From positions 1 through 38,517 of the forward strand of contig JAQWZU010000010.1 of the NCBI GenBank assembly GCA_029253285.1: DNA of 38,517 nt, read 5' to 3'. Positions 4,395 through 34,335 of this stretch are shown one piece after another. The notes beneath the pieces were generated by a model. That model worked only from the letters and a program-made list of their open reading frames with translations, was not told the DNA's origin and made no database searches. Position 1 is the stretch's first letter. Each line of letters opens with the position of its first letter. Source of the stretch: Akkermansiaceae bacterium. Its GTDB lineage: Bacteria > Verrucomicrobiota > Verrucomicrobiia > Verrucomicrobiales > Akkermansiaceae. A program made the position numbers and the translations under genes.

Positions 4395-5804
4395 CTATTT
4401 CGCTTCGGTCGCTTTCAACTCAGCCATCACCTCGGCTTTCCAGGCCTTCAAGCCCAACTGCAACCGCTGCATTACTTTCGGGTTTTCCTTTGCGAGATTT
4501 TTCGACTCACCGGGATCGGCGATAATGTCAAAAAGCTGCGGCGTCTTCTTTCCTTCGATCAACTTGTAGCGATGCTCCATCCACGCGGCTTCCTTGCCAT
4601 CCTTGTTGAGAAAGCCCAGAGGCTTTTCCCGCTCTATTTTCTTGCCCGTCACAAAAGGCAAGAGAGTAACTCCGTCGTATGTCCGCCCAGCGGGTAAATC
4701 TACGCCAAGCGTATCAAGAATGGTCGGAAAATAATCCGAGGTGAAACAGGGAGCTTCCACGGTCTTTGGCTCTTTGATTTTCTCCGGCCAGACCATCAAT
4801 CCCGGCACTCGAATCCCGCCTTCGTTGATCGACAATTTATAACCTTTCAGATCCTTGGCCGTCCCCACGTGTCTGGGAGATCCCTGTCTGGCCGGCCCGT
4901 TATCGGAGCAAAACCACAGCATCGTGTTGTCCGCTGCGCCCAGTGATTTTAACTCAGCCCTCAAACGGCCAATCTGCTCATCCATCGCGGTGAGACAGCC
5001 GTAATAATGCTGCTCGTGCTCGGTCCGGTCCAGATACATCTCACGATACCTCGGACCACCCACCACGGGAGAATGGGGCGTGTGAAACCAGATCACGGTA
5101 AAGAAGGGCTTCTCTTCCTTCACCGCATTTCGAATGAAAGGCAGAGCCCGATCCATGATGACACGGGAATCGTCACCCTTCGTATTCTCCGTCGCCTTCT
5201 GCCCCGGCCCGGAAAAATAATCATTCCCGTAGGGCTTCCCACTCGACGGCGAACCTCCTTTCTTGATCGGACCCGGATCGATCAATGGATCCCAAGTCGG
5301 CACCTTGGACTCAGTCACAAAACTAACATCCACATCGCGCTCCCACGGCGGGCAGTAGTATCGCGCCGGAGACTTGGCAAAAGTGCCCCAGCGCTTTTGA
5401 TCGCGAGGCTCTTTGGACAAGGTTCCCAAATGCCACTTCCCAAAATGCCCTGTGGTATATCCCTGTTTTTTCAAAACCGAAGTAATCGAAACCTCGCTCG
5501 GCTCCAGCATCCCCTTCATCGCAAACGTAATCCCGTAGCGATAAGGATTCCGGCCCGTGTAACAACTTCCACGAGTCGGCGAACACATCGCCGCACCGGC
5601 ATAAAATCGCGTAAAGGTCACTCCCTCTGCATGCATTTGGTCAAGATGCGGCGTCTTCAAATGTGGATGCCCGTTGTAGCCGACATCACCCCAGCCCTGG
5701 TCATCGGTCATGCATAGAATAATATTCGGGCGGTCCGCGCCATGAGTGGCTTGCGTGAAAATCGCCACTGCGATCACTGATAGTATCTTAACAGGAAATT
5801 TCAT
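4395..5804 (-). CDS. Secreted type I sulfatase
   Basis: Arylsulfatase-type hydrolase of 469 residues that removes sulfate esters, probably from sulfated carbohydrate in the periplasm or outside the cell. A signal peptide covers residues 1-22. The calcium-binding pair DD is at 34-35 (CMTDDQGWGDVGYNG) and the formylglycine site is CSPTR starting at Cys74, in the usual C-x-P-x-R form. GHFGKWHLG near 120 supplies the active-site lysine, and FCSDNGPA near residue 300 gives the DNG motif. Activity needs a formylglycine-generating enzyme, which is not in this window. The start lies 15 bases after the stop of the preceding sulfatase, so the two are probably cotranscribed. Confidence 0.95.
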   Translation of the reverse strand: MKFPVKILSVIAVAIFTQATHGADRPNIILCMTDDQGWGDVGYNGHPHLKTPHLDQMHAEGVTFTRFYAGAAMCSPTRGSCYTGRNPYRYGITFAMKGMLEPSEVSITSVLKKQGYTTGHFGKWHLGTLSKEPRDQKRWGTFAKSPARYYCPPWERDVDVSFVTESKVPTWDPLIDPGPIKKGGSPSSGKPYGNDYFSGPGQKATENTKGDDSRVIMDRALPFIRNAVKEEKPFFTVIWFHTPHSPVVGGPRYREMYLDRTEHEQHYYGCLTAMDEQIGRLRAELKSLGAADNTMLWFCSDNGPARQGSPRHVGTAKDLKGYKLSINEGGIRVPGLMVWPEKIKEPKTVEAPCFTSDYFPTILDTLGVDLPAGRTYDGVTLLPFVTGKKIEREKPLGFLNKDGKEAAWMEHRYKLIEGKKTPQLFDIIADPGESKNLAKENPKVMQRLQLGLKAWKAEVMAELKATEAK

Positions 5805-5819
5805 CGCTGAAGGAGAAGT

Positions 5820-7244
5820 CTATTTCTTTTTCTTGTTCCGGGAATGCGGAGCCTGCAATCGATCCTTGTCGATCAACTCTCGATCATAAATCTCGCCAGG
5901 CCGGATTGGTTCGTGAGCCGCTTCGGCAAATCCAACAAGCTTCTTGAGGACCTCCGGGTGTTCCTTCGCAAGGTTCTCCTTCTCCTCTACCTCTTTCGAA
6001 AGGTCATAGAGCTGCCAGTCTCCTTTTTTCCCTTTGTAGGCTTTCCAGTTTTTCATCCTTACTGCGGTCTGGCCTACATACTCCCAATAGAGGTATTCAT
6101 GATTCTTCTGTCCCGGCTCACCCATGAGAGTCGGCATCAACGACAAGCCATCGGTCTTAGGACTCGTCGCTCCGGCCAACTCCGCAAGCGTCGGCATAAT
6201 GTCCGGGAAGTAACACAGATGGTCGGCCTCCACTGATTCCTTGATCATTCCAGGCCAGCGCACCAGGAAGGGAATCTTCAAGCCACCTTCGTAAAGTGAT
6301 CCCTTACCCGCCTTAAAACGCTCACCGGTTTCCGGATTGAGATTCGGCCCGAAGAAACCATGCGGACGACCCTTCGTCGAAAAGTAAGCCTGCCCCCCAT
6401 TGTCGCCACACAGAAAAAAGATCGTCTCCTGATCCAGATCCATCTCCTTCAGGCTCGCGATAATTTCCCCAATCTGCCGATCAATCATATGCATGAATGC
6501 GGCATAGACCTTGGCGTCATTTTTTGTTCTCTGACCTGCGGTCCACGGCTTGTCTTTGAACAACTTCCAGGACGGGTCATCTTGATCGATTCCCCACAAT
6601 CCATGAGGCGGCGTCCAAGGCAAGTAGCAGAAAAAGGGCTTCTCTCTATTCTTACGAATGAACTTCATCGACTCTTTGAAAATCTCATCTTGGGCATGGG
6701 TTTTCCCTTCGTAGAAACTCGTTCCCTCGTTTCCCTCCAGAGGCACTTCCTTACTATTTCGAATAAGGTATTTTGGATAAAAAGTATGCGCATGTACCTG
6801 GTCGTAATATCCAAAGAACTCGTCAAATCCGTGCTTCTCGGGAACACCCGAGGTTCCCCGCCCGCCGATTCCCCACTTCCCAAATCCTCCCGTGGCATAC
6901 CCTTCTTTCTTCAACATGCTCGCTAGCGTTTGCTCCTCCCTCCGGATCGGCGCGGATCCATTGTTCGATCTCATCGAGGTATGACCGGAATGCAACCCCG
7001 TCAATAAGACGCACCGCGTCGGACCACACACCGGAGCTCCCGCATAGGCATTGGTGAACCTCATGCCATCCTTCGCAAACTGATCGATATTGGGGGTGAG
7101 CAAATCCTTACTCCCCATATGGCCCGATTCAAAATACCCCCACTCATCGAGCATGAGATAAATAATATTGGGTTTCTTCTCCTTCGCCGAGACACTGGAA
7201 ACCAATACTAGGGCCGATACCACGGCCAACAATGTGCACTGCAT
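5820..7244 (-). CDS. Secreted type I sulfatase with Asp-Glu in place of the Asp-Asp pair
   Basis: Sulfatase of 474 residues with a signal peptide (about 1-20, ending SVSA). The catalytic site is CGPTR from Cys73 (C-x-P-x-R kept), followed by a standard LLTGLHSGH segment. GFGKWGIGG near residue 120 holds the active-site lysine and CGDNGGQ near 295 the DNG motif. The calcium-binding pair near the N-terminus reads LDEWGYFESGHMG, that is Asp33-Glu34 rather than Asp-Asp. It is the first gene of a two-sulfatase unit, followed after 15 bases by the next one. The C-terminus is lysine-rich (RNKKKK). The substrate cannot be read from the sequence. Confidence 0.93.
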   Translation of the reverse strand: MQCTLLAVVSALVLVSSVSAKEKKPNIIYLMLDEWGYFESGHMGSKDLLTPNIDQFAKDGMRFTNAYAGAPVCGPTRCVLLTGLHSGHTSMRSNNGSAPIRREEQTLASMLKKEGYATGGFGKWGIGGRGTSGVPEKHGFDEFFGYYDQVHAHTFYPKYLIRNSKEVPLEGNEGTSFYEGKTHAQDEIFKESMKFIRKNREKPFFCYLPWTPPHGLWGIDQDDPSWKLFKDKPWTAGQRTKNDAKVYAAFMHMIDRQIGEIIASLKEMDLDQETIFFLCGDNGGQAYFSTKGRPHGFFGPNLNPETGERFKAGKGSLYEGGLKIPFLVRWPGMIKESVEADHLCYFPDIMPTLAELAGATSPKTDGLSLMPTLMGEPGQKNHEYLYWEYVGQTAVRMKNWKAYKGKKGDWQLYDLSKEVEEKENLAKEHPEVLKKLVGFAEAAHEPIRPGEIYDRELIDKDRLQAPHSRNKKKK

Positions 7245-7418: not shown

Positions 7419-8525
7419 CTAATCGATCTTCGGCGGTAATGTTGGAGGCCTTTCCGGCCCCGGCTTCGTCGGCGCCGGGGGAGGCTCTTTCTCTCTCCTA
7501 ATTTCCACATCATCGATGCGGATGTAATAGGCGCCCATTCCCCTGACTTCCCAACCCGCCGAGACCCGGGCCTTATCGGTCACCCGACGCGCTTGCAGGT
7601 AGGTATTGAAAGAATTCGGGTGCACGTGAAACATCAGCACCGATCTAATGTTGCTGGAAAGCTTATAAACGATCTTCGCAAAGTTGCTGTCTTTCTTTTT
7701 TAGTTCTTCGAGAGAGGTTCCGCCCGCCTTCAGGTCGGGCGACACCACGAGTTGCATTCTCGTTGAAACCGGATTAGCCACCAGTTTGACTTTCTGGTTT
7801 CGTGAGTTTTTAAAATCGAACTTCTCGTAGTGTTTGAGAATCGGACCTGAACGATAAATATAGCGATCCGCACCCTGTCGCTTGATTCGTTCATTCGGAA
7901 AGTTGCGTTTCTCCTTCCTAAACTCATCCTCAAACATCTTCAGCGGCGTAAAAGGATCGATGAAATGCACCCGATCATTGATAACCAGCGCGTGGTAGAT
8001 CTCCGCACTCTTCGGCACCGGACGACTCGCCGGAATCCCCACAACTGTCGGATCAACTTTCAGCACCGGAGTCTTATCCAAGAGCGCCTCAAGGCGTGCA
8101 ATTTCATCCTGAATTCCCTTGGTCTTCTTCGCTTCATCATCCCGCTCTTTCCGTGACTTTTTCTCCAGCTTCTTCAGTTGTTCCAAATCTGCCAACAGCT
8201 CCTCATTAGTCTTCACGTTCTTCTCAAGCAAGGCCAACTGCCGTTTCTCGTCCTCCACGTCCTCCGGCTTTGGCGGCTCTTTCGTGAGCATCGTCTCCAA
8301 GATGATTTTTTCCGATTCCAATTCCTTGGCCTTCTCTTCCGATGCCGCCACCTCTTCTTCAGTCGCCGGCAGAAGGCCTTCCAGAAACTGCACCACCTTC
8401 TGACTCACATCAGCTTGCACAAGGAGGAGCACGAGAATAAGCACCGCCACCACATTGGTAAGCGCGTCCATGAGGGAGTCGAGATTAACTCCCTCGTCTG
8501 AACTGGATTTGCGTCTTCTTCCCAT
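7419..8525 (-). CDS. ExbD/TolR-like stator protein with coiled-coil stalk (keeps the membrane Asp)
   Basis: A 368-residue protein with one N-terminal membrane segment (about 20-37) after a short basic N-terminus (MGRRRK). NLDSLMDALTNVV aligns with the ExbD motif N-x-x-P-L-I-D-V, placing Asp20 where the proton-relay aspartate of ExbD lies. Residues 55-150 are rich in Glu, Lys and Leu and should form a long coiled coil. Residues 170-345 are a larger alpha/beta domain, and the tail is proline-rich (PPPAPTKPGPERPPTLPPK). Typical ExbD is about 140 residues, so this is much longer. It is the last gene of a three-gene operon, 5 bases after the preceding stop. It probably works with the ExbB-like channel encoded upstream; the task powered is unknown. 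Confidence 0.85.
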   Translation of the reverse strand: MGRRRKSSSDEGVNLDSLMDALTNVVAVLILVLLLVQADVSQKVVQFLEGLLPATEEEVAASEEKAKELESEKIILETMLTKEPPKPEDVEDEKRQLALLEKNVKTNEELLADLEQLKKLEKKSRKERDDEAKKTKGIQDEIARLEALLDKTPVLKVDPTVVGIPASRPVPKSAEIYHALVINDRVHFIDPFTPLKMFEDEFRKEKRNFPNERIKRQGADRYIYRSGPILKHYEKFDFKNSRNQKVKLVANPVSTRMQLVVSPDLKAGGTSLEELKKKDSNFAKIVYKLSSNIRSVLMFHVHPNSFNTYLQARRVTDKARVSAGWEVRGMGAYYIRIDDVEIRREKEPPPAPTKPGPERPPTLPPKID

Positions 8526-8530
8526 CGTTC

Positions 8531-9346
8531 CTAGCGCTTGAATAATGAAAGATCGATCTTCCCGTCATTGGGAATCGGAAGCTTTCCGGTTGGCAGTTTA
8601 TATTTCAATTCCGCCGTCGCGGCGGCCCAGCGAAAGGCTTCGTTCCCGGATTTCCGGATGAGATACAACACCATCGAGTCGTCGGTCTTCTTCACCCGGT
8701 CCAAATACTTGGCATACACCCCGCTCGTTTTGATCGCGGCGGTCGACAATTTTCTCTCTCCCCCCTGCGCGTCGAGCAAGATAATCCCGGTGGAATTACA
8801 TTCCACAAAAAAGATCTTCCGCGGCCCTCCTTCACCCACTCCCCGCGGCTGAACGATCACCGACTCCTTCGGCTTCGGAGCTTCCTTACGTGCCTTCAGT
8901 TCATCCTGCAAGGTCTTCAAGCGCTTGGCCAAAGGAGGACGTTCCTGACGAAGAGCCTTCACCTCTTTTTTCATATTTTCCACCTGCTTCTGCAACTGGG
9001 CGTCGGTCATCTTGGGATCCTTTGCTTTCTCGAGCTCCTTCAACTTCATCGTCAGGGCAATCCTGGCTTCCTCGATTTTCGCCATCGCGGACACCGTCGA
9101 TTTATCCTTCTTCAACTTCTCATCCAGCTCGGCGATTTTCTTTTCCAATTCTTTGGTTTGAATCTGCAAATCCCGGTTCTTGGTTGCCCGGGCCATTTCC
9201 TCTTCGGTCCGACCGTTTTTCTCCATTTGTTGAACCTGCATCATCACGCTGATCATGAGCGTCAGAATCCCGATGAGGCATGCCAGGATGCTCATGAAGG
9301 GGAACAGGGAAACTCCCTGCGATGAATCTTTCGCTCGCCGCGCCAC
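8531..9346 (-). CDS. ExbD-like protein with coiled-coil stalk lacking the membrane Asp
   Basis: A 271-residue protein with the ExbD layout: short basic N-terminus (MARRAKDSSQGVS), a single membrane helix (about 15-36, LFPFMSILACLIGILTLMIS), a Lys/Glu-rich coiled coil (38-145) and a C-terminal alpha/beta domain (about 155-271). Where ExbD proteins have P-L-I-D, this one reads P-F-M-S, and there is no acidic residue in the membrane helix. It therefore probably cannot relay protons itself and may act as the passive partner of the Asp-bearing ExbD-like protein encoded next. It sits 5 bases from both neighbours. The ExbD relationship rests on topology and operon context more than on sequence identity. 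Confidence 0.8.
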   Translation of the reverse strand: MARRAKDSSQGVSLFPFMSILACLIGILTLMISVMMQVQQMEKNGRTEEEMARATKNRDLQIQTKELEKKIAELDEKLKKDKSTVSAMAKIEEARIALTMKLKELEKAKDPKMTDAQLQKQVENMKKEVKALRQERPPLAKRLKTLQDELKARKEAPKPKESVIVQPRGVGEGGPRKIFFVECNSTGIILLDAQGGERKLSTAAIKTSGVYAKYLDRVKKTDDSMVLYLIRKSGNEAFRWAAATAELKYKLPTGKLPIPNDGKIDLSLFKR

Positions 9347-9351
9347 GGTTC

Positions 9352-10644
9352 TTATGATTTGGAAAAGAAGCCGCGCTTCTTCTTGGCCTCGTTCGGAATT
9401 TTCTTCTCACCCAGGTCCTTCAGCGCCCGATTCATCGACTCGACCCCATGCGCAATATTTTGGAAGGTCAGCTCCAGTTGCGAATGCGACTTGATGAAGA
9501 TGTCACTACTGGATTTCGACATTCTGGATACCGCATCCGTAAACGAGTCCTCGACAACCTTCTTGTGATCATCCAAGCGATCCTGCATCAACTCGCCCAC
9601 ATAAGTCATCTGGCGAGTCGATTCATTCAGGTTCACCAGGAATGTTTCATGCGCCCGGGCCAAGGATGCCACCAACTGCGGAATGCTATCTGCCTGCTGA
9701 ATTAACTCGTCCCCGACCAAGGTGCGGCTGTCGTTGAGCTTCGGCAGGAGTTCCTCGACACAAAAAGCATCGATCATGGTGAGTGTTTCATCTTCCTTCT
9801 TCTGCACCGCAGCCAGAGGGAAGCTCATCAAGATGCTCAGAACCAAGCCCAGCAAAGTCGTATCAAAAGCGGTGCCCAGCCCGCTGGTCAAACTGTTGAT
9901 CGAGGACTTCAAGGCTTCGGGGTCGGCATTGTCACCCATTGCCAGTGATCCCACCGCCACCGACAAACCAATCACCGTTCCGATAAATCCCAAAATCGGA
10001 ATGGCCCAAAGAAAGACTCTCACCAAAGAATACGACCCAGTCGATCGATTCGCATCGATGTCCGACTGCGTATTTAAATAGGCCCCCACCTCTCCGTTGT
10101 TCGTCCGGGATTCAAAGAGCTCCAGGGCCTTGCGAATCCGATTCACAATAAGACTGTCTCTCAAGGTCAGCGGCACCCGGTAAATATTATCGATAAACTC
10201 CCCGACATTCCTCGCATGGATTTCTTTCCCCAGATGCTCCGGGAAGAGATTCAGCAAAACAGCCTGGGACTGCGACTGGTTTTTCTTCCACTTCATCACC
10301 AAAATCACAATCCCCCAGCAAAAGAGAAAGGTCTCTGTCCAGTTCACCCAACCTCGATCCAGGAATAGCTCACCCAAGCGCGTTGACTTGAAGGGGAACA
10401 TCATGAAGAGAAACAAGATCGAGATCCCCGCTCCGATGAGCAGGCTCTTTCCAAAGCTCACATTAGCGTGATCACCTTCCTCCCAACCTGTGCGCTCGGG
10501 ATTCTTCGACGCGCCCCCCCCGGATGATGCGACTTCATTGGGCACCGCGAAGCGGCTTTGACAAGCTGGGCACTGCACCTGCTGACCGAGGTGCTCCTCG
10601 GTTACACTCAGTGCGGTCGAACATTTGGGACAAGATATTTGCAT
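9352..10644 (-). CDS. ExbB/TolQ/MotA-family proton channel with N-terminal zinc ribbon
   Basis: A 430-residue membrane protein. Residues 1-35 form a zinc ribbon with two CPxC knuckles (Cys5, Cys8, Cys25, Cys28), of the kind found in MJ0042-type fingers. Four membrane segments follow: about 66-84, 102-118, 207-235 and 255-278. The third contains GFIGTVIGL (Thr223) and the fourth GTAFDTTLLGL (Thr258, Thr262, Thr263), matching the pore helices and threonines of ExbB/TolQ. Residues 285-415 are a long, mostly helical cytoplasmic tail, larger than in ExbB. This is the first gene of the operon with the two ExbD-like genes, so together they should form a proton-driven motor. The zinc ribbon is the odd part and may bind a cytoplasmic partner or nucleic acid. 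Confidence 0.9.
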   Translation of the reverse strand: MQISCPKCSTALSVTEEHLGQQVQCPACQSRFAVPNEVASSGGGASKNPERTGWEEGDHANVSFGKSLLIGAGISILFLFMMFPFKSTRLGELFLDRGWVNWTETFLFCWGIVILVMKWKKNQSQSQAVLLNLFPEHLGKEIHARNVGEFIDNIYRVPLTLRDSLIVNRIRKALELFESRTNNGEVGAYLNTQSDIDANRSTGSYSLVRVFLWAIPILGFIGTVIGLSVAVGSLAMGDNADPEALKSSINSLTSGLGTAFDTTLLGLVLSILMSFPLAAVQKKEDETLTMIDAFCVEELLPKLNDSRTLVGDELIQQADSIPQLVASLARAHETFLVNLNESTRQMTYVGELMQDRLDDHKKVVEDSFTDAVSRMSKSSSDIFIKSHSQLELTFQNIAHGVESMNRALKDLGEKKIPNEAKKKRGFFSKS

Positions 10645-10788: not shown

Positions 10789-12819
10789 ATGCAGGTAGTG
10801 AGAGTCTCTTTCAAACGCTCAATCGGGGGAGTGCTCATTTCTAGCATTCTCTCCATCGCCCCAAGCCCGGCACAAACGGTCGCGAGGCAGTGGAACGAAG
10901 AAAATCTTGCCGCAATCCGAATCGACTTCCCCGCTCCCACTGTCCACGCGCGGAATCTCTTCCACCTCTCGGTTGCCATGTGGGATGCCTGGGCTGCCTA
11001 CGATCCGGCCGTAATTGGCTATCTTCACAACGAAAACGCCATCGTTCCGGTCAGCCACACCTTGGCCCAGGCCCGTGATGAGGCCATCAGCTTCGCCGCC
11101 TTTCGATTACTCAAACAGCGCTACGCCTTTTCGATCAACCCGGCCACCACGCTGGCCGCTCTCGACGACCGCATGACCGCTTTGGGATACAATATCGCAA
11201 ATACTTCCACCGTCGGGAGCACTCCTGACGCCGTCGGTAACCGGATCGCGACCTCGATCATCAACCACGGAACATCCGATGGCGCCAACGAAAGCGCCGA
11301 CCCCGGCTACACCGACACCAGCGGTTATGCGGCGATAAACGACCCGCTCATGCTAGAGACCAACGACACCATCGCTGGCTTCCCGCTGGGATGGGTCGAC
11401 CTCAATCGTTGGCAGCCTTTGGCCTTCAGAAGCGCGGAAACTCAAAACGGCTTCGAAGCCAGAAGAGTCCAAGCCTTCGTCAGTCCGCATTGGGGAAGCG
11501 TACAAGGATTCGGACTCTTCACCGCCGACCTGAATGCAAACGCCCTTTATTTTGATCCCGGCACCCCTCCCTATCTCGGTGGAACCGGTGACCTTGACTA
11601 CAAAAACAACGCCGTCGAAGTCTTGGAATATTCGGCCCTTTTGGATCCCGCTGACACCACACCCATCAACCTCTCGCCTTCAGCCCGCGGCAACAACACG
11701 CTCGGGCAAAATGACGGCACCGGCCATCCGGCCAACCCGACGACCGGAATACCCTACCCTGACAATATCGTTCTCCACGCTGACTACGGACGCTGCGTCG
11801 CCGAGTTTTGGGCAGATGGCCCGGACTCGGAAACCCCTCCCGGGCACTGGAATGTCCTCGCCAACGAAATTACCGACGACATCATCGCCGATCCATCCCT
11901 GAACCTGAAAATTGCCAATACCGGCCCCGTTTTGGACACTCTGGAATGGGAGCTCAAACTCTACCTCGTTCTCAACGCCGCCCTTCACAACACCGCCGTC
12001 GCTGTCTGGGGCGTCAAAGAACACTACGACTACGTTCGTCCTCTCTCGGCCATTCGCTATCTCGGCCGTACCGGAGATCTGCCATTGACTCCGGGTTTGG
12101 TGGAAGAGATTACTCCGGCAACCATCGCGAGCTACCACAGCCATCTTTCGGACCACTCCGGAAAAATCGCCGTGAACACCTGGCCCGGTGAACCAGCCGA
12201 TCCTATAACTCAATCCGGAGGACGCGCCTGGATTCTCGCTGAAGAATGGCTTCCCTATCAACGCGATACCTTTGTCACCCCCGCCTTCGCCGGGTACGTT
12301 TCCGGACATTCCGGATTTAGTCGGGCCGCCGCCGAGGTGATGACCCTAATGACCGGCTCTCCCTATTTTCCGGGCGGCCTTTCCTCCCATACTATACTTG
12401 CAGGCGGACTCCTTTTCGAAAACGGGCCCACGGTCGATCTCACCTTACAATGGGCCACCTATTATGACGCCGCAGATGAAGCCGGAGAATCCCGCCTCTA
12501 CGGTGGCATTCATGTTTCTCCCGACGATGGCCCCGGCCGCATCATGGGGTCGCTGATCGGCCAATCTGCCTTCACCTACGCGCAAAAATTCTGGGACGGC
12601 TCTGTTCTTCAACTGTCAACCGTTGACCTCGGCGAAACCGGAGAACTCAGCTACCATACCATCCCAGGATACCACTACACTCTCGAGAGCGGCACCCACC
12701 CGGATTCCTTCCCCACCATTGAAGCCACTCCAGGAATCGCCACCGGGCACGAAAACACCATCACCGTCTCCACTACCGATCCCGCCCGCTTTTTTCGCTT
12801 TAAAATCACCGGACCTTAA
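10789..12819 (+). CDS. Secreted vanadium-dependent haloperoxidase / PAP2-superfamily protein
   Basis: A 676-residue exported enzyme. The shared haloperoxidase/acid-phosphatase active site is complete: K410-x6-R417-P418 (KEHYDYVRP), SGH at 505-507 in YVSGHSGFS, and S568-R569-x5-H575 (SRLYGGIH). The vanadate-dependent version oxidises halides with peroxide; PAP2 phosphatases use the same residues on phosphate esters, and the sequence alone does not separate them. The gap between the RP and SGH motifs (about 86 residues) is longer than in classical enzymes. A signal peptide ends near residue 28. The last 75 residues form a small beta module ending FFRFKITGP, similar in style to the C-termini of two other secreted proteins here. 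The next gene begins 12 bases downstream. Confidence 0.9.
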   Translation: MQVVRVSFKRSIGGVLISSILSIAPSPAQTVARQWNEENLAAIRIDFPAPTVHARNLFHLSVAMWDAWAAYDPAVIGYLHNENAIVPVSHTLAQARDEAISFAAFRLLKQRYAFSINPATTLAALDDRMTALGYNIANTSTVGSTPDAVGNRIATSIINHGTSDGANESADPGYTDTSGYAAINDPLMLETNDTIAGFPLGWVDLNRWQPLAFRSAETQNGFEARRVQAFVSPHWGSVQGFGLFTADLNANALYFDPGTPPYLGGTGDLDYKNNAVEVLEYSALLDPADTTPINLSPSARGNNTLGQNDGTGHPANPTTGIPYPDNIVLHADYGRCVAEFWADGPDSETPPGHWNVLANEITDDIIADPSLNLKIANTGPVLDTLEWELKLYLVLNAALHNTAVAVWGVKEHYDYVRPLSAIRYLGRTGDLPLTPGLVEEITPATIASYHSHLSDHSGKIAVNTWPGEPADPITQSGGRAWILAEEWLPYQRDTFVTPAFAGYVSGHSGFSRAAAEVMTLMTGSPYFPGGLSSHTILAGGLLFENGPTVDLTLQWATYYDAADEAGESRLYGGIHVSPDDGPGRIMGSLIGQSAFTYAQKFWDGSVLQLSTVDLGETGELSYHTIPGYHYTLESGTHPDSFPTIEATPGIATGHENTITVSTTDPARFFRFKITGP

Positions 12820-23549: not shown

Positions 23550-26500
23550 TCACTGGACCGTCGCCGAAATTCGGTAGAAAAGACGTTGGCGCAAATCAAC
23601 AGGCGGCATCACCACCATTGTCACCGAGGACCTGCCATCTCCCAGGGGCTCTTCAGATTTCAAAGTGACTCGTGAATCCTCTCCCCAAGCTTCGAGATCG
23701 CTCGAGAGCTCGATTCCGAGAACGACCCTATCCGCCGCAATGCTTCGAGTAAATGTCAGCGTCGGTAGGACTGTCTGCACTCCTTCAAGTAAATGAGTCT
23801 CTAGGCTGATCGAGGGTCGGATCGCCGGAACTCCCAGATCGTTTCCGAGCACGTAGTCCAGTAAACCCCCGGGAAGGTCCGCCGGAAGAGGCAAAGAATC
23901 GGCTACCCCGGGTCCACCGCCAAGAGCCGCGCTCATCCGCCAGCCTGCAGGCTCGTCAAGGTTCGCTGGGTCAGTTAGCACAAGACTGTATCCTTGATCC
24001 GCAGCAAGCGGCCACCCTTGATCATCCCGATAATGAAATTCCAGGATGGTATTGTTGAGAGCGTCTTCCAGTTTCACCGCGTCATCTGAATTACTCAACT
24101 TACTGTTGTTTTGAAAGACACCTGCAATCGGGAAGCCCGTTCCGTGGACGGCTTCGAAAGCCGCGATGTCACGCACCACAAGCACCCGTTCTCCGGGAGC
24201 GAGCGATGTCACCGCCGACCCGGTAAAATTAAACTCCACCCCGGAGGTGAAGCGCACGTTCGTGAGGTCGAGCGTGGTGCTTGTGCTCGTGTTGAGAAGT
24301 TCGATAAATTCAGCATCCCCATCCGGCTCGGGATGATACATCAACTCGGTGATGCTGAGGTAGGACTGGGCATCGCTGGCATTCCCTGAATAAGTAAGAC
24401 TCGCATTCAGCACTCCACCATCATCGGTCAGAATAATCGTCTCCCCTTGGTTGGAAAGATGCCCGGAATAGCCTCCCTGCACGAAGTTTCCTTCGCCAGC
24501 GCTCGGGCTTGTCGCACGGGCACGGAAGACGCTCACATCCGGCGTCACATAAAGGGTGCCATTTGCCGGAATCACTGTTCCCGGTTTGAACTGATGGGTC
24601 ACTGCATCACTGAGCGACCAACCAGAAATATCAATCGCTTTGCTGTGAGGGTTCGTAATCTCAATAAACTCCTCGTCTTGGATTCCCGATGCCGGAGAGG
24701 ATTCGATACTCTCGATCACCAGGAACGGATTCACTCCCTCGCCCGTCTCAGAAAGGCTCCCGAGCAGTTGCACATTGAGCACAAAGTCATCGTTGATCGT
24801 GCTCTGGTTGAAACCATGGACCGCGAGAATATTTGTCCCGTTCTCGAGAAGGCCCATGACGTCATCCAGATCAAAGGAATCATAAGTCGATGAATTCGCC
24901 TCGTGAGTGCCATCCGACGTCGAATCAAAAACCGGGTTAGCGGGCGCATTCACTTCTTGGACCGCCACGCCATTCAAATATACGATAAAGCCATCGTCAT
25001 ACTGCATCTTCAGCTCCAGGCCCTCCAGCGCATCCTTATCAGAGACTTCAAAAGGGACTCTTAAAAATAGGGACGCATTCTTTGTCCACATTTCACTCTG
25101 CACATCAGTTGAAATGATCGCATTGTAACCCGACCCGAGATCATAGCCGATCGCGGCGTTCCCGCTCCCCCAGCTGGAATCATCAAAGGGTTCATCCCCA
25201 CCTGTCCAAGAGAGGCCCGCTGATCCATCAGTGGGAATGAGGAAGCGGGAGGCGCTCACAGCCGTCACCAAATTCCCCGAGAAACCCGGATCCAGCTCTT
25301 TCTGGGGCAGCGGAATCTCCCCACCTTTCCCGACGACCTGGTGCTCATAAATCTCCTCCCGCCGTCCCGTGAGAAACTCCGTTTTATAACGAGTAATCGC
25401 TTCCGCCATCGTCTCCACATCAGGATGGTTCGTCGTGAATGGAACCTGGCCTCCTCCTTGTCCGCTCAGCCACGATCCCCACTTCTCAAAATCCAACTGC
25501 GCATCAGATTTCGTGTGCGAAGGATCATCAATGAGCGCTGAAAGCTCATCGAGTCGTTGTTCAAAAAAGCGCTCCTCCAACGGCGTCGAAGCTTCCTGTA
25601 GAAATCGATCATGCAGAGTCCGCATGCGCCGCACCAGCATCTGCTTCAGCTCGGAATTTGCACGGATCTGAGAAATCAGACGCACCGCTCCACCCACGAA
25701 TATTTTATCTTTGGTCAAAATCGCGTTGTTGAAATACTTGTTCGCCTGATCGAACTGCCGCCCCTGCGAAAGGTCGAGGTCCCAGGGAAGCATCGCCCAT
25801 TCATCACTCTTCCCCGTGTCACGATAGAGATACCAGTTCTTGCGCTGAATATCGACATTGCGGATCACCGTCATCGTCGCGAGATAATTGATCGTGCTCG
25901 GCAGGTCGATGTTGTCGTAGAGGTAGTTTTCCAAACTCGTTCCTCCCAGATCAAGCCCATCAATGAGCGACTGCAGATCAGAATTATCCTCCTCCTTCCG
26001 CGTCTTCTTCTGCATTCCAAAATCCGCCATGTCGCCTTCGTCTTTGTTAAGACGCATGTCATAGGCCTTATAAAGCACCCCCTCCGGATTCAGGCCGGCG
26101 CGCTCCAGATAGGTTTCATCGCCATCTTCCACCAAATCCGCCGTCGAGAAGAACTCCCCATTCTGATGCACCCGCACCGTGTAGGCAAAGTGTGCCGCCA
26201 CTCCCGCCCTGCGCATTACCTCGTAAGCCAAAGCATGACGCACCTTTGACTTATCTGCCCAGTTCGTCAGCAGATCGATGTCCGAGACTCGCGGAGCCTC
26301 CGCACTCCACTCAAATTTATGACCTTTGTTGAAGTCGATATTGTAGGACTTCTTTGGGAAAGAAGACGTCGATTGGCCATGCAACTTAAAGCCCACGTTA
26401 TCGTAAAATTGCCCGCGATAATACAGTGCCCCGGGAGCTCCTCGGTCACCCGTTGGAAATCTCACCGCCGCCGCTGTTGGATTTTCGATGAACCAATACA

Positions 26501-27344
26501 GTGTCGTGAGGTTCGATTCAATGGTAGGATCTGCACCCACCGTTCCGAAATACTTGGGCGAGTTCTCGGGCTCTGGAAATGGCGGGCTCGTCGTCACGAG
26601 GGTATTGGAATCAGTCACCTCAAAGCGCCACCGCGTCATTACCCCAGGCCCAAAGGCTGTCGCTGGAATCGAAGAGGTATAGAGCCCGTCACCCGAATCC
26701 GTCGCACTCAGAGCGACTTCGTTTTCAAAATCCTTCCGGTAATAAACCCTCACCGAGGAAATCGTGCCATTCAGCGCCCGCGGACGAAGTGACAGCGCAA
26801 ACGGACCCGCAAATGGCTGCACAGGCTCGGCTGGAACATCATCGAAAGTTGGGCCCGCTAAGGACCCGTTTCCGTTCGCTACTCCCGGTGTCGGACTCGA
26901 AAAAAAGACCAAGTTATTAGAAGTCGACACCCCAAAGGACTGATCCTCCTTCTGCGCCGGATAATCAAATCCACTCACCAAAGTCCCCGCCCTCGTCAGC
27001 GCCACAAAACCGCCCTCACTCGAAAGCTTAAAGTCCGCATGAAACTCCCCGACATCACGATCATTCCCCGAAGCAAAGACCACCAGGTATCCCCCCGGCT
27101 CAAGCAGCGCCCCACCCGGGAAGCTCCACCGGCTCATCTGTAACCGATCATCCGTCAGCGTATAATCTCCCAGATCATAAGAAACCCCATCCGGATTATG
27201 AATCTCGATCCAGTCCGAAAAACCACCATCCTCATCCGCCAATCCCGCCTCATTCGCCGCCAGAAACTCCGTCATCACCAGCTCTGCCCCCACCCCTTGG
27301 GTCAGAACAAGCGCCAAGAAACAAAGCCGTGACGAAAAAACCAT
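23550..27344 (-). CDS. Giant secreted CotH-kinase / lamin-tail domain protein
   Basis: A 1264-residue exported protein and the largest gene here. After a signal peptide (1-20) comes a lamin-tail domain (about 21-160; ELVMTEFLAANEAG, FSDWIEIHNPDG). The CotH protein-kinase-like domain spans roughly 310-570, with FKLHGQSTSSFPKKSYNIDF, KSKVRHALAYEVMRRAG and MLPWDLDLSQGR, which contains acidic residues expected at a catalytic or metal site. Two further lamin-tail domains lie at about 890-1010 (DEEFIEITNPHSKAIDISGW) and 1030-1130 (ITELMYHPEPDGDAEFIELL). The C-terminal beta module ends LFYRISATVQ, like two other secreted proteins in the window. CotH domains phosphorylate spore-coat proteins in Bacillus; the target here is unknown. 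Palindrome copies 4 and 3 flank the gene at 34 and 12 bases. Confidence 0.92.
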   Translation of the reverse strand: MVFSSRLCFLALVLTQGVGAELVMTEFLAANEAGLADEDGGFSDWIEIHNPDGVSYDLGDYTLTDDRLQMSRWSFPGGALLEPGGYLVVFASGNDRDVGEFHADFKLSSEGGFVALTRAGTLVSGFDYPAQKEDQSFGVSTSNNLVFFSSPTPGVANGNGSLAGPTFDDVPAEPVQPFAGPFALSLRPRALNGTISSVRVYYRKDFENEVALSATDSGDGLYTSSIPATAFGPGVMTRWRFEVTDSNTLVTTSPPFPEPENSPKYFGTVGADPTIESNLTTLYWFIENPTAAAVRFPTGDRGAPGALYYRGQFYDNVGFKLHGQSTSSFPKKSYNIDFNKGHKFEWSAEAPRVSDIDLLTNWADKSKVRHALAYEVMRRAGVAAHFAYTVRVHQNGEFFSTADLVEDGDETYLERAGLNPEGVLYKAYDMRLNKDEGDMADFGMQKKTRKEEDNSDLQSLIDGLDLGGTSLENYLYDNIDLPSTINYLATMTVIRNVDIQRKNWYLYRDTGKSDEWAMLPWDLDLSQGRQFDQANKYFNNAILTKDKIFVGGAVRLISQIRANSELKQMLVRRMRTLHDRFLQEASTPLEERFFEQRLDELSALIDDPSHTKSDAQLDFEKWGSWLSGQGGGQVPFTTNHPDVETMAEAITRYKTEFLTGRREEIYEHQVVGKGGEIPLPQKELDPGFSGNLVTAVSASRFLIPTDGSAGLSWTGGDEPFDDSSWGSGNAAIGYDLGSGYNAIISTDVQSEMWTKNASLFLRVPFEVSDKDALEGLELKMQYDDGFIVYLNGVAVQEVNAPANPVFDSTSDGTHEANSSTYDSFDLDDVMGLLENGTNILAVHGFNQSTINDDFVLNVQLLGSLSETGEGVNPFLVIESIESSPASGIQDEEFIEITNPHSKAIDISGWSLSDAVTHQFKPGTVIPANGTLYVTPDVSVFRARATSPSAGEGNFVQGGYSGHLSNQGETIILTDDGGVLNASLTYSGNASDAQSYLSITELMYHPEPDGDAEFIELLNTSTSTTLDLTNVRFTSGVEFNFTGSAVTSLAPGERVLVVRDIAAFEAVHGTGFPIAGVFQNNSKLSNSDDAVKLEDALNNTILEFHYRDDQGWPLAADQGYSLVLTDPANLDEPAGWRMSAALGGGPGVADSLPLPADLPGGLLDYVLGNDLGVPAIRPSISLETHLLEGVQTVLPTLTFTRSIAADRVVLGIELSSDLEAWGEDSRVTLKSEEPLGDGRSSVTMVVMPPVDLRQRLFYRISATVQ

Positions 27345-31377: not shown

Positions 31378-34335
31378 CTAGCGAGCCGAAGTCGCGAGGG
31401 CTTGTTTTTCCTTCAAGATCTTCCGGAATTCCTCGAGCCTGGGACTGAGATCATCTCGGCCTGCGAGGTTCTTTTTTTCCTCGGGATCGCGAGTGAGATT
31501 ATAGAGTTCCTCCCCATCCGGCCACTTGCCGTAGCGCCAACGTTGATTGCGGAGGGCGTAACCCATGTCCTTGCCGCGGGTCACAATGCTGTAGGCATAC
31601 TTCTTTTTCCCAAGACGCTCCGGGTGATCGAGTAATGGACGTAAGGAGGTTCCCTGAAGATAGTCCGGCGGCGTCAGTCCGGTGAGTTGCGCGAGAGTCG
31701 GATAAATGTCGATCAACTCAACCATCGCTTCGGACCTCGTCCCCGGCTTGGTCAGTCCCGGGGCGTGAATGATAAAGGGCACCTTGGCCCCGATGTCGAA
31801 GAGGGTCACTTTCCCCCACAGGAAATGATCGCCGAGATGGTATCCATGATCAGAAGTGAAGATCACGATAGTGTCCTCCCACTGTCCGCTTTCCTTGAGA
31901 GCATCGAAGACCAACTTGACCTGCGCATCGATGAAGGAAATACACGCGTGATAGGCCTGCATGTATTCGCGACGAAGAGCGTCATCTTCTTTGGAAAACT
32001 CAAAACCAAATTCCTTAAAGCGGGTATTCATGGCCCTCTTCGGCAGGGTCTCCCATAGGTTTCTCGGGTCCGGCTTGTAGACAATCCCGCTCGTCGGATA
32101 GAGATCGAAATACTTCTGTGGTGCGAGGAAGGGCACGTGAGGCTTTTGAATGCCGCAGGCCATGAAAAACGGCTTGTCTCCGTTGGGTTTTTCTTTGAGC
32201 CACTTCACGACCTGACGGGCATTCTTGCCATCCTTGTGTTGCGCATCGCTGAGCCCACTCGCGCCGTATCCCGGCGGCGTTTGGGCATCGAGCGTGGCCT
32301 TGGCTTTCTTTTCCAGAACGCGCCAGGCTTTGCGGTTTTTTTGGAGATCCACCGAGCCGTTCTCCGCTTCAAATTTCTTGCGAGCCTTCGTCACCACAGG
32401 AAGCTCATCATTTACAAAGCGGAGGAACTCGCTCCAGGCAATCTCCCCATGTTCATGTCGCGGCGAATGGAAAACCTTCCCCACACTTCCGGTCCAGTAA
32501 CCATTCTTTTTGAAAAACTCCGGCATGGATATTGTCCCCGGCCGGGTCTGACGAATGTCCGCCTTGTTATCGATGACCCCGGACGATTGCGGATAGAGCC
32601 CATTCAAAAAAGAAGCCCGCGACGGCCCACACACCGGATACTGACAGAAGGCCCGATTGAAGGACATGGCTTCGGAAGCAAACCGGGATAGAGTAGGCGT
32701 CTTGATATGCGGGTATCCCGAAGTGGCCACATGCGTATTGAGATCATCGCAGACAATGAAGAGAACATTTTTCTTTCCGCTCTTCTTGGGTGGCGTCTTC
32801 TTCTGAGCGGGTCCCGGAACTTTCTTCTCATGAGGCGTCTTTTTTCCCGTCCCCTCTCCCTTCGACCAGTGAAAAGACTCACCCTCCAAAACAAGATCGT
32901 TACGGACGTTGTATTTGGCTTCCTGCGGAGCGAAACTCTTGGGCGCAACCTTTCGGAGAGAACTCTTGATTTCGTCGTACTTGGAATCCCCCGCTAGGTT
33001 CTCCCACTCATTGGGGTCCTTCTTCACGTCGTAAAGTTCCTCTCCGTCTTTCCCATAGGAAATGTAACGCCAATCACGATTGATCACGGCATATTCTCCC
33101 GGCGTCATATAGGGTAAATATACCTCGCGGTCTTTGGCCGCATCGGGATTTCCAAGAGTCTTGGCGAGTGAGGTCCCTTCGAGCTTCTGGCTGGGCTTCG
33201 ACAAGCCGCACATCTCGACAAAGGTGGGATACATGTCGATCAAGCTCGCCGTGACATCAGTCTTCTTCCCCTTGGCGACTCCCGGACCGGCCCAAATAAA
33301 AGGCACATTGGAAGTGCGCTCCCAAAGGGTGTGCTTTCCCCAATCTCCTTTTTCCCCGTGGTGATAGCCATGATCACTCCACAACACCACAATGGTATTA
33401 TCGGCATAGGGGCTGGCCTCCAGGGCATCAAGCACCCGCCCCATCATGGCATCAGCATAGCTCATGCAGGCCAGGTATCCGTGGATGGCGTCATCAACCG
33501 CATTGAGGCTCTCGAGCTTTTTGTGGATCTTGGAGCGATTGGTTTTCATCTTCCTCATCCGCTCGGGAAGATCGTCGAGGTCATCCGCTTTGTATGGCGG
33601 AAGCTCGATCTTTTCGGAGTCGTAGAGATCGAAGTATTTTTTCGGGCAATAGTTGGGGAAATGCGGCGCGTAGATTCCCGCTGCGAGGAAGAAAGGTTTG
33701 TCGTGTTTCTTTCCCAATTGTTCGACGGCCCAATTGATCCGCTGGGTGTCGGCCATTTCCTCTTCCTTGTCATTCGGAACTGGTCCCCACTCGAGGAAGA
33801 GTCCGCCGGTTATTTTTTGCCCCTTGTTGTAGATGCTATTCGGAAAAGGATCGGGAAAAGGGACCTCCTCGCTAAATGAATCGAGCGGCCAACCGGACTC
33901 GCGTTGCGATTTGTTGCGCAGAAAAAACTCGCTCCACCCTCGCTGGTCGATATTGCCCGCCGGATGGTGAAAGAGCTTCCCCGCTCCCAAGGTGGTGTAA
34001 CCCGCCTTCGAAAAGCTCATCTGCATCGCTTCGATCTCGGGATGATGGGTAAAGTAGTTCGCGCTAATGTAGCATCCGGTCGTCGACGCGAACTGGCCCG
34101 AAAAAATGGCCGCTCGGGAAGGCGCACAAAAAACTCCCGCGGTGTGGGCATTGGAAAAATTCACGCCACGCCCAGCCAGCTTATCGATATTCGGCGTGAT
34201 CGCTCTGGGTGTCGTTTCCAAACAACCAATCCAGTCGTTCATGTCATCGACAGCGAGGAAGAGAACGTTGGGGCGATCTTTGGCGACAGCCTGGCCGAGA
34301 ACAAGGAGCAGCAGATAAAGTGAGGCGATTTTCAT
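31378..34335 (-). CDS. Tandem double sulfatase (two complete catalytic domains in one chain)
   Basis: A 985-residue exported protein made of two full sulfatases. Domain 1 (about 20-455) has VDDMNDW with Asp30-Asp31, formylglycine motif CAPSR at Cys70, and [15 protein letters not shown] at 320-334. A Lys/Pro-rich linker (about 490-522) follows. Domain 2 (about 523-985) resembles iduronate-2-sulfatases: CDDLNTH with Asp530-Asp531, CGPSR at Cys569, and a [15 protein letters not shown] block further on. Both keep the residues needed for activity, so the enzyme may remove two sulfates from one oligosaccharide or make two different cuts. The reading frame is continuous through the linker. It is the second gene of the operon, 14 bases after the hydrolase gene. 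Confidence 0.95.

Follow-up and report, generated by a model that had tools for sequence, protein, structure and literature searches.

A trio of adjacent genes encoding a zinc-ribbon channel subunit (B) and two unlike ExbD/TolR-like axle subunits (D1 and D2) lies on the minus strand of a 38,517-nucleotide stretch of DNA from an Akkermansiaceae bacterium (contig JAQWZU010000010.1 of GenBank assembly GCA_029253285.1), referred to here as the window. The three proteins very probably form one complex and, by analogy with known motors of this kind, the complex is probably a rotary motor of 5:1:1 composition whose axle is mixed. The principal evidence is a coupled residue switch in the membrane parts of the three proteins. 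State I, which is that of the window, combines Ser19 of D1 with Asp16 of D2 and Thr262 of B and was found in 61 of 82 complete trios. State II combines Asp19, Val16 and Ala262 at the same positions and was found in 21 of the 82, and mixed states were found in none.

The trios were obtained by scanning contigs with a D2 profile, using one genome per species across 84,980 species, which gave 289 relatives, of which 80 were kept. With other searches included, 131 loci were collected, 104 of them unique and distant forms among them. The switch table was made from 90 of the 104 unique loci, 14 being left out because they had no B or less than 180 amino acids of B. Eight of the 90 stand outside the 82: L133 and L054 (from one genome, with D2 broken and Ser in D1), L150 (D1 unpicked by the script, state I by eye), L170, L171, L177 and L179 (the short form described below, with D1 unread by the pattern and no acid at the site by eye) and L172 (the third form, also described below). 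D1 position 19, D2 position 16 and B position 262 discriminate the states strictly in all 82 trios. At B position 104, Glu is present in 51 of the 61 state I trios, with Thr or Ser in five and gaps in five, and Asn is present in 21/21 state II trios. Other discriminating positions, some with a few exceptions or gaps, are Val210 (Ala in state II), Arg97 (His in state II), 64, 98, 99 and 101 in B, 13, 15, 19 and 22 in D1, and 14 to 17 and 37 in D2. These positions fall within, beside or before the membrane parts of the three proteins. A second sample comprised 384 genomes of the class, 40 of which matched the D2 profile; it contributed 25 places, consisting of 11 duplicates and 14 new trios, while 14 others were already included and G440, with D2 at a contig start, was left out. 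The 14 new trios divided into eight of state II and six of state I with no D1/D2 mixture, and B262 fitted the state in 13/13 readable cases, the B site of L237 being unreadable.

The preliminary description of this locus, made from the window alone, had placed Asp20 of D2 at the ExbD site and had quoted P-F-M-S without any acidic residue in the helix for D1, and both readings are as quoted. It overlooked a second acid, Asp16, in the same D2 helix, one helical turn N-terminal of Asp20. An Asp near the start of the membrane helix, as in ExbD, is present in D2 (Asp20), which is invariant in a 75-row alignment, and is replaced by Ser19 in the window D1. The ten PF02472 ExbD genes elsewhere in the same genome all have Asp at the helix start when their translations are read by eye, leaving D1 Ser19 as the exception. 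Homologs of the Asp-less protein with an acid at this site had been named as a result that would weaken the heterodimer idea; the absence of Asp from D1 is not fixed, and such homologs occur in both samples (21/82 and 8/14 trios). Since the trios with Asp in D1 lose both D2 Asp16 and B Thr262 in all readable cases, the heterodimer idea is modified and strengthened rather than lost. B Asp261, which directly precedes Thr262, is kept in 80/82 complete trios. As a side observation, an acidic residue thus stands directly before the pore Thr pair of B, with Glu in place of Asp in L204 and L207, and the position equivalent to 261 (window 9862-9864) holds other residues in the seven other channel genes of the genome.

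The three genes were found to go together. Co-occurrence was assessed in 58 genomes, one of them that of the window, with strong matches judged by bits and counted by eye. Strong matches to D1, D2 and B were present in 27, 28 and 28 genomes, respectively, and all three in the same 27; 29 genomes were without any strong match, and two held pieces at contig ends (B and D2 with D1 missing at the gap in G005, and the start of B alone in G004). Independent occurrence of the two ExbD-like genes, which had been named as a result that would weaken the heterodimer idea, was thus unseen in the 58 genomes apart from these contig-end pieces. The genes are adjacent by coordinates in 25 of the 27 full-set genomes. 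G039 has D1 at the end of one contig and B on another. In G035, contig C5 carries B and D1 in its interior and C40 carries D2 close to its end, all three being open and of state II. Each break in G035 is followed by the apparent start of the same transposase (by eye), so B-D1 and D2 were separated by a rearrangement; a single insertion element between D1 and D2 was considered and rejected, the transposase-like frames not having the orientation of one insertion. D1 and B lie upstream of D2 on the same strand in 76/81 loci with at least 2600 bases upstream. The five exceptions are L150 (D1 present by eye but unpicked), L117 (a piece of B on the opposite strand at a contig end), L151 (B not found), and L120 and L140 (second copies whose B-to-D1 stretch is deleted or broken, by eye). 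Relatives of all three proteins are aligned at 20-79% identity with identical gene order. One genome (L054/L133) has D2 broken by stops and D1 open, with a B match that also spans a stop near its start, and one trio (L143) is in a record titled Planctomycetaceae, which may be a misnamed bin or a true case outside Verrucomicrobiota.

No conserved neighbour beyond the trio was found in 84 loci with flanks of up to about 7-9 kb, the next commonest family reaching 11/84, and no TonB- or TolA-type partner was found among the same loci. Families near 10-11/84 loci are scattered and, as named by eye, include sulfatases and cytochrome-like, DUF1501-like and PQQ-propeller-like proteins.

D1 and D2 are paralogous (hhalign probability 99.4, E value 5e-22, over 245 columns), and the alignment sets PFMS19 of D1 against SLMD20 of D2. 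Each has one membrane helix by hydropathy. AlphaFold2 models of both consist of the membrane helix, a helical stalk and an alpha/beta head, with a mean predicted local distance difference test score (pLDDT) of 76 and a predicted template modelling score (pTM) of 0.41 for D1, and 83 and 0.57 for D2. The predicted stalks are both about 105 residues long and end at residue 152 in D1 and 151 in D2. Over residues 48-152 the hydrophobic period is 3.4 residues in D1 and 3.46 in D2, as would be expected for a coiled coil, and is reached by 6/500 and 16/500 shuffles, respectively. The distance from the switch site to the head is 154-165 residues in D1 in 82/82 trios, and 145 or 146 residues in D2 in 65/82, with outliers of 115, 164 and 164. 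Outside this span the proteins are more variable (109-183 residues in D1), the D2 count including rows cut by contig ends.

For both heads the top structural match in VIA searches is Escherichia coli TolR, and the C-terminal domains, called distinct in the preliminary description, do not represent a new fold. The D1 head matches TolR with Z 7.0 and a root-mean-square deviation (rmsd) of 3.5 over 86 aligned residues, unrelated rows being lower at 5.8, and the D2 head matches it with Z 6.2 and rmsd 3.3 over 92 aligned residues, the next row being 4.4. Among the 50 matches listed per VIA search there was no vWA or OmpA-like chain, which is not evidence of absence. With Foldseek alone neither model had a match at E 0.001, and no Pfam match above the cut-off was obtained for the window D1 or D2. 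A profile search of solved structures gave no TolR or ExbD among the matches listed (60 of 131 for D1, all 34 for D2); these were mostly coiled-coil or other helical proteins, because the stalks dominate the D1 and D2 profiles. On the predicted fold, D1 and D2 are likely to be hidden TolR-like proteins.

B matches PF01618 (MotA_ExbB) over its pore helices at residues 170-287 (E value 7e-10, 39.1 bits against a curated cut-off of 22.9), and the pore motifs GFIGTVIGL and GTAFDTTLLGL are present as first quoted. The genome has seven other PF01618 genes, each of which outscores B on this model. The zinc ribbon reported earlier is borne out by a match above the cut-off to the MJ0042 model TIGR02098 (E value 3.7e-6), and its four Cys residues are invariant in a 17-row alignment that includes the window. 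Its role may be cytoplasmic docking or oligomer contact, which is a guess. Four hydrophobic helices are predicted by hydropathy (67-85, 99-117, 207-225 and 262-280). A four-helix channel subunit is the MotA-type layout, and ExbB and TolQ have three membrane helices. With four helices, and with ZorA, PomA and MotA as its best-matching channel models, B carries the label "ExbB" only loosely; the family match stands but, on its predicted layout, B is not ExbB proper.

The best NCBIfam matches of B are ZorA models, followed, after the ribbon model, by PomA and MotA, and all of these channel models fall under their NCBIfam cut-offs. The ZorA matches (E value 9e-10 in NCBIfam and 5e-12 in PADLOC) and the helical tail of B, which makes it a tailed pore protein like that of ZorAB, would suit a Zorya-like or other defence motor; the preliminary description had likened the long stalks and tail to specialised motors such as Zorya while noting that the components differ. 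Against this, the best ZorA score is 38.2 bits against a cut-off of 100, Pfam shows no Zorya-type effector among six neighbouring proteins (PADLOC covering the trio only), no neighbour is conserved, and the two axles have heads that match TolR/ExbD by predicted fold. A defence motor is thus very improbable, and was rejected on scores and gene context.

The history of the switch was followed in a tree made without the switching columns and without the membrane ends of D1 and D2. It contained 29 rows, comprising 23 of 26 clade rows and six outgroup rows, with L056, L123 and L131 left out as near-copies. Well-supported branches of this quick 29-row tree force four state changes, and placing all state II rows in one clade lowers the log-likelihood by 859 and is rejected with p-AU 1e-18. 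Genus g17 holds both states, L058, L228 and L229 being state II and L059 and L060 state I. In trees of separate segments the B membrane region requires two state changes and each of six other segments four to seven. L058 and L059 are 72-92% identical in the ribbon, B tail and both C-terminal domains, and 68% and 55% identical in the D1 and D2 helices; L058 and the distant L149 share 100% and 90% identity in these helices. For the B tail and D1 C-terminal domain, identity is 78% and 81% between L058 and L059 against 56% and 50% between L058 and L149. Membrane pieces of all three genes, with unmoved stretches between them, thus changed in concert. All four independent state-contrast pairs agree.

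The near-identity of these membrane pieces in distant state II rows, with the remainder tracking relatedness, could also mean that the states are not functional alternatives and that membrane blocks were recombined between operon copies, the co-switch being co-inheritance. Two copies are or were present in some genomes (L091/L095, L122/L140 and L120/L123). The exchanged pieces are, however, non-contiguous, with the B tail, D1 stalk and D1 C-terminal domain unmoved between them, and separate tracts that always end matched imply selection for matching. Co-inheritance by itself is therefore unlikely. The occurrence of only matched sets, whether by recombination or by mutation, is best explained by contact in one pore.

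Gene linkage, paralogy, matched stalk ends and the co-evolution of the axle helices with the pore make an obligate heteromer the simplest reading. The heterodimer first suggested is thus supported, with stalk ends within one residue of each other, while a permanently Asp-less D1 is not. The channel and axle genes are encoded together and co-evolve at the pore, as in motors of the 5:2 kind, and B, D1 and D2 would form one inner-membrane, proton-driven motor of that kind, most likely with five B subunits around one D1 and one D2; its stoichiometry, rotation and proton use are inferred. The two axle helices would sit inside the B pore, the stalks would pair along their length in a coiled coil, and the two TolR-like heads would lie in the periplasm. 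In the window motor the only ExbD-site carboxylate is that of D2 Asp20, perhaps aided by Asp16, with D1 Ser19 holding the second position. The stalk itself would carry force outward, since no TonB or TolA gene adjoins, and we give even weight to the idea that force passes through the stalk and TolR-like heads and not through a TonB-type partner. In other systems TolR and ExbD domains attach to the cell wall or to partner proteins. Given these heads and the lack of a conserved neighbour, work on the outer envelope is our best guess at the cellular role.

Two alternative motors with unlike outputs, one with five B and two D1 and the other with five B and two D2, could be built from the same genes, the D1 homodimers of state I then being proton-dead regulators or spares. 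A parallel is AglR with AglQ and AglS, of which PMC9389320 says that it is not known whether they form heterodimers or homodimers. A carboxylate-less D1 homodimer has no evident use as a motor, yet D1 is kept in all 27 of the 58 genomes with an unbroken set, and the membrane helices of D1 and D2 switch in step, as would be expected of helices that lie opposite one another in a single pore, so separate homodimeric motors are distinctly unlikely.

Several results weigh against the mixed-axle motor or narrow it. The pTM of the D1 model is just 0.41, and structural Z values of 6 to 7 are only middling by the tool's yardstick, so that the TolR fold is assigned with moderate strength. PF02472 was absent for 76 D1 members (among the 25 of 55 families listed) and for 75 D2 members (all 18 families), and hhalign of D1 and D2 against the genome's ExbD set was weak, with probabilities of 4.5 and 21. 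The stalk lengths of D1 and D2 are weakly negatively related (rho -0.37, from 50/82 trios read by pattern and with very small ranges), and compensation between the two stalk lengths was dropped as unsupported. The whole-B tree, which includes the switching columns, needs three state changes, and just two of these are forced by well-supported branches. With four independent switches only, the sign test stops at p 0.125. Finally, a distant third form carries Asp in D1 together with paired acids in D2, which shows that the coupling does not hold everywhere.

This third form, with Asp in D1, was found at L204, L206, L207, L213 and L214. The acid one turn before Asp in D2 is present, where read, in L204, L207, L213 and L214, and Thr is present at B262 in L204, L206 and L207, the three loci with B read. 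Since it breaks the coupling, the coupling is a property of the zinc-ribbon family and not of all such pairs. A general rule of two carboxylates per axle pair was likewise rejected, as it holds for the zinc-ribbon family only and the third form has three. A short B-D1-D2 form without the ribbon occurs at 13 loci (L191-L203, with B read in 10/13) in several distant Verrucomicrobiota genomes and, where read, resembles state I in having D1 without acid, paired acids in D2 and Thr at B262. It adjoins fabZ-, lpxA- and gspD/gspE-like genes in several loci as judged by eye (for example L195:3008-7729 and L199:6623-9289), neighbours that hint at a role in the outer envelope. Three state I D1 proteins (L093, L094 and L098) have Asp at position 13 (VDLFSFMSIL), and an Asp at much the same spacing is present in the short form.

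The known axles of ExbBD, TolQR and MotAB are homodimers, so that a single arm cannot be changed alone. The trio breaks this symmetry genetically, each axle being mutable separately, and offers natural matched variants in which one axle or both carry Asp at the ExbD site within the same protein set, which makes the use of two axle carboxylates by 5:2 motors a testable question. A tentative and rather doubtful reading is that the two states are a gear change. State II, with Asp on both axles, would give ten proton events per turn in 36-degree steps, and state I, with the ExbD-site Asp on one axle, five events in 72-degree or limping steps. The B pore would be re-tuned each time (Thr262/Ala262, Glu104/Asn104 and Arg97/His97), with at least four such switches. 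According to PMC9389320, two equivalent axle chains are predicted to give 36-degree steps, and an outside partner that breaks axle symmetry 72-degree or limping steps; to extend that stepping model to intrinsically unlike axles is an inference by analogy. The contrast of five with ten equivalent events might hold if the model applies, unless D2 Asp16 is a second site.

All three reading frames were confirmed in the window, with gaps of five bases between the B stop and the D1 start and between the D1 stop and the D2 start (Table 1). Scans for promoters and terminators were at chance level. The trio is flanked by a divergent haloperoxidase-like gene (10789-12819) and by two sulfatases (4395-7244) identified with Pfam, and Pfam found no TonB-like gene among six neighbouring proteins, in line with the first account of the locus. 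Elsewhere in the window are a 985-amino-acid frame with two tandem sulfatase matches (31378-34335) and a 1264-amino-acid protein in which a CotH kinase domain is accompanied by three lamin-tail-domain matches (23550-27344).

Table 1 Features of the B-D1-D2 trio (positions in the window)
Feature	Positions	Strand	Description or basis
B	9352-10644	minus	430 aa zinc-ribbon channel subunit; four predicted membrane helices, helical C-terminal tail
B zinc ribbon, MJ0042 type (Cys5, Cys8, Cys25, Cys28)	10537-10644	minus	TIGR02098
B Glu104, second membrane helix, co-switching site	10333-10335	minus	Alignment of trios
B Asp261-Thr262, last membrane helix	9859-9864	minus	Alignment of trios
D1	8531-9346	minus	271 aa; ExbD/TolR-like axle subunit lacking Asp at the ExbD site; GTG start
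D1 Ser19, at the position of the ExbD Asp (Asp in state II)	9290-9292	minus	hhalign, aligned with D2 Asp20
D1 stalk, residues 48-152, predicted helical	8891-9205	minus	AlphaFold2 model, hydrophobic period
D1 C-terminal domain, residues 166-259	8570-8851	minus	TolR 5by4 Z 7.0; ExbD 8pek Z 6.2
D2	7419-8525	minus	368 aa; ExbD/TolR-like axle subunit carrying both Asp16 and Asp20
D2 Asp16 (Val in state II)	8478-8480	minus	Alignment of trios
D2 Asp20, ExbD-site Asp	8466-8468	minus	Invariant in 75-row alignment, window included
D2 stalk, residues 56-151, predicted helical	8073-8360	minus	AlphaFold2 model, hydrophobic period
D2 C-terminal domain, residues 170-342, with insertion	7500-8018	minus	TolR 5by4 Z 6.2

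Among known systems, ExbBD and TolQR share with the trio the PF01618 pore, the TolR/ExbD-like head (by predicted fold) and the Asp at the same place in D2. The trio differs from them in that its two axles are unlike and have long stalks, in that B has a zinc ribbon and four predicted helices, and in having no TonB or TolA gene nearby. GldLM is alike in sending a long shaft into the periplasm; GldM is described, partly in PMC9389320, as dimeric and as having a shaft of 18 nm, whereas the D1 and D2 heads match TolR. The preliminary statement that no described system has this combination was too strong, as pairs of unlike TolR-like genes have been published for this superphylum. The TPH-vWA sets described in PMC12204202 likewise have one TolQ/MotA-type gene and two unlike TolR-like genes, but these are accompanied by a vWA transducer and by a TPR gene, whereas the trio has no conserved further partner and has the B zinc ribbon, axle stalks of about 105 residues and one axle without Asp. 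In the window's genome, three other channel genes (L066, L069 and L071) are followed by ExbD pairs that both keep Asp and lie near long proteins of 1011-1936 amino acids, perhaps like the published TPR/vWA sets. A literature search that covered few subscription papers and preprints found no zinc-ribbon channel with two long-stalked axles, no Asp-less axle and no coupled residue switch. The gliding motor AglR-AglQ/AglS of Myxococcus combines one MotA-type with two MotB/TolR-type subunits, and the conserved Asp is predicted in AglQ and AglS alike, unlike in the window D1, with no zinc ribbon noted in the part of PMC9389320 available. Mixed axles are thus already suspected in print for AglQ and AglS, and the trio shows a co-evolution pattern that is unusually direct evidence for one.

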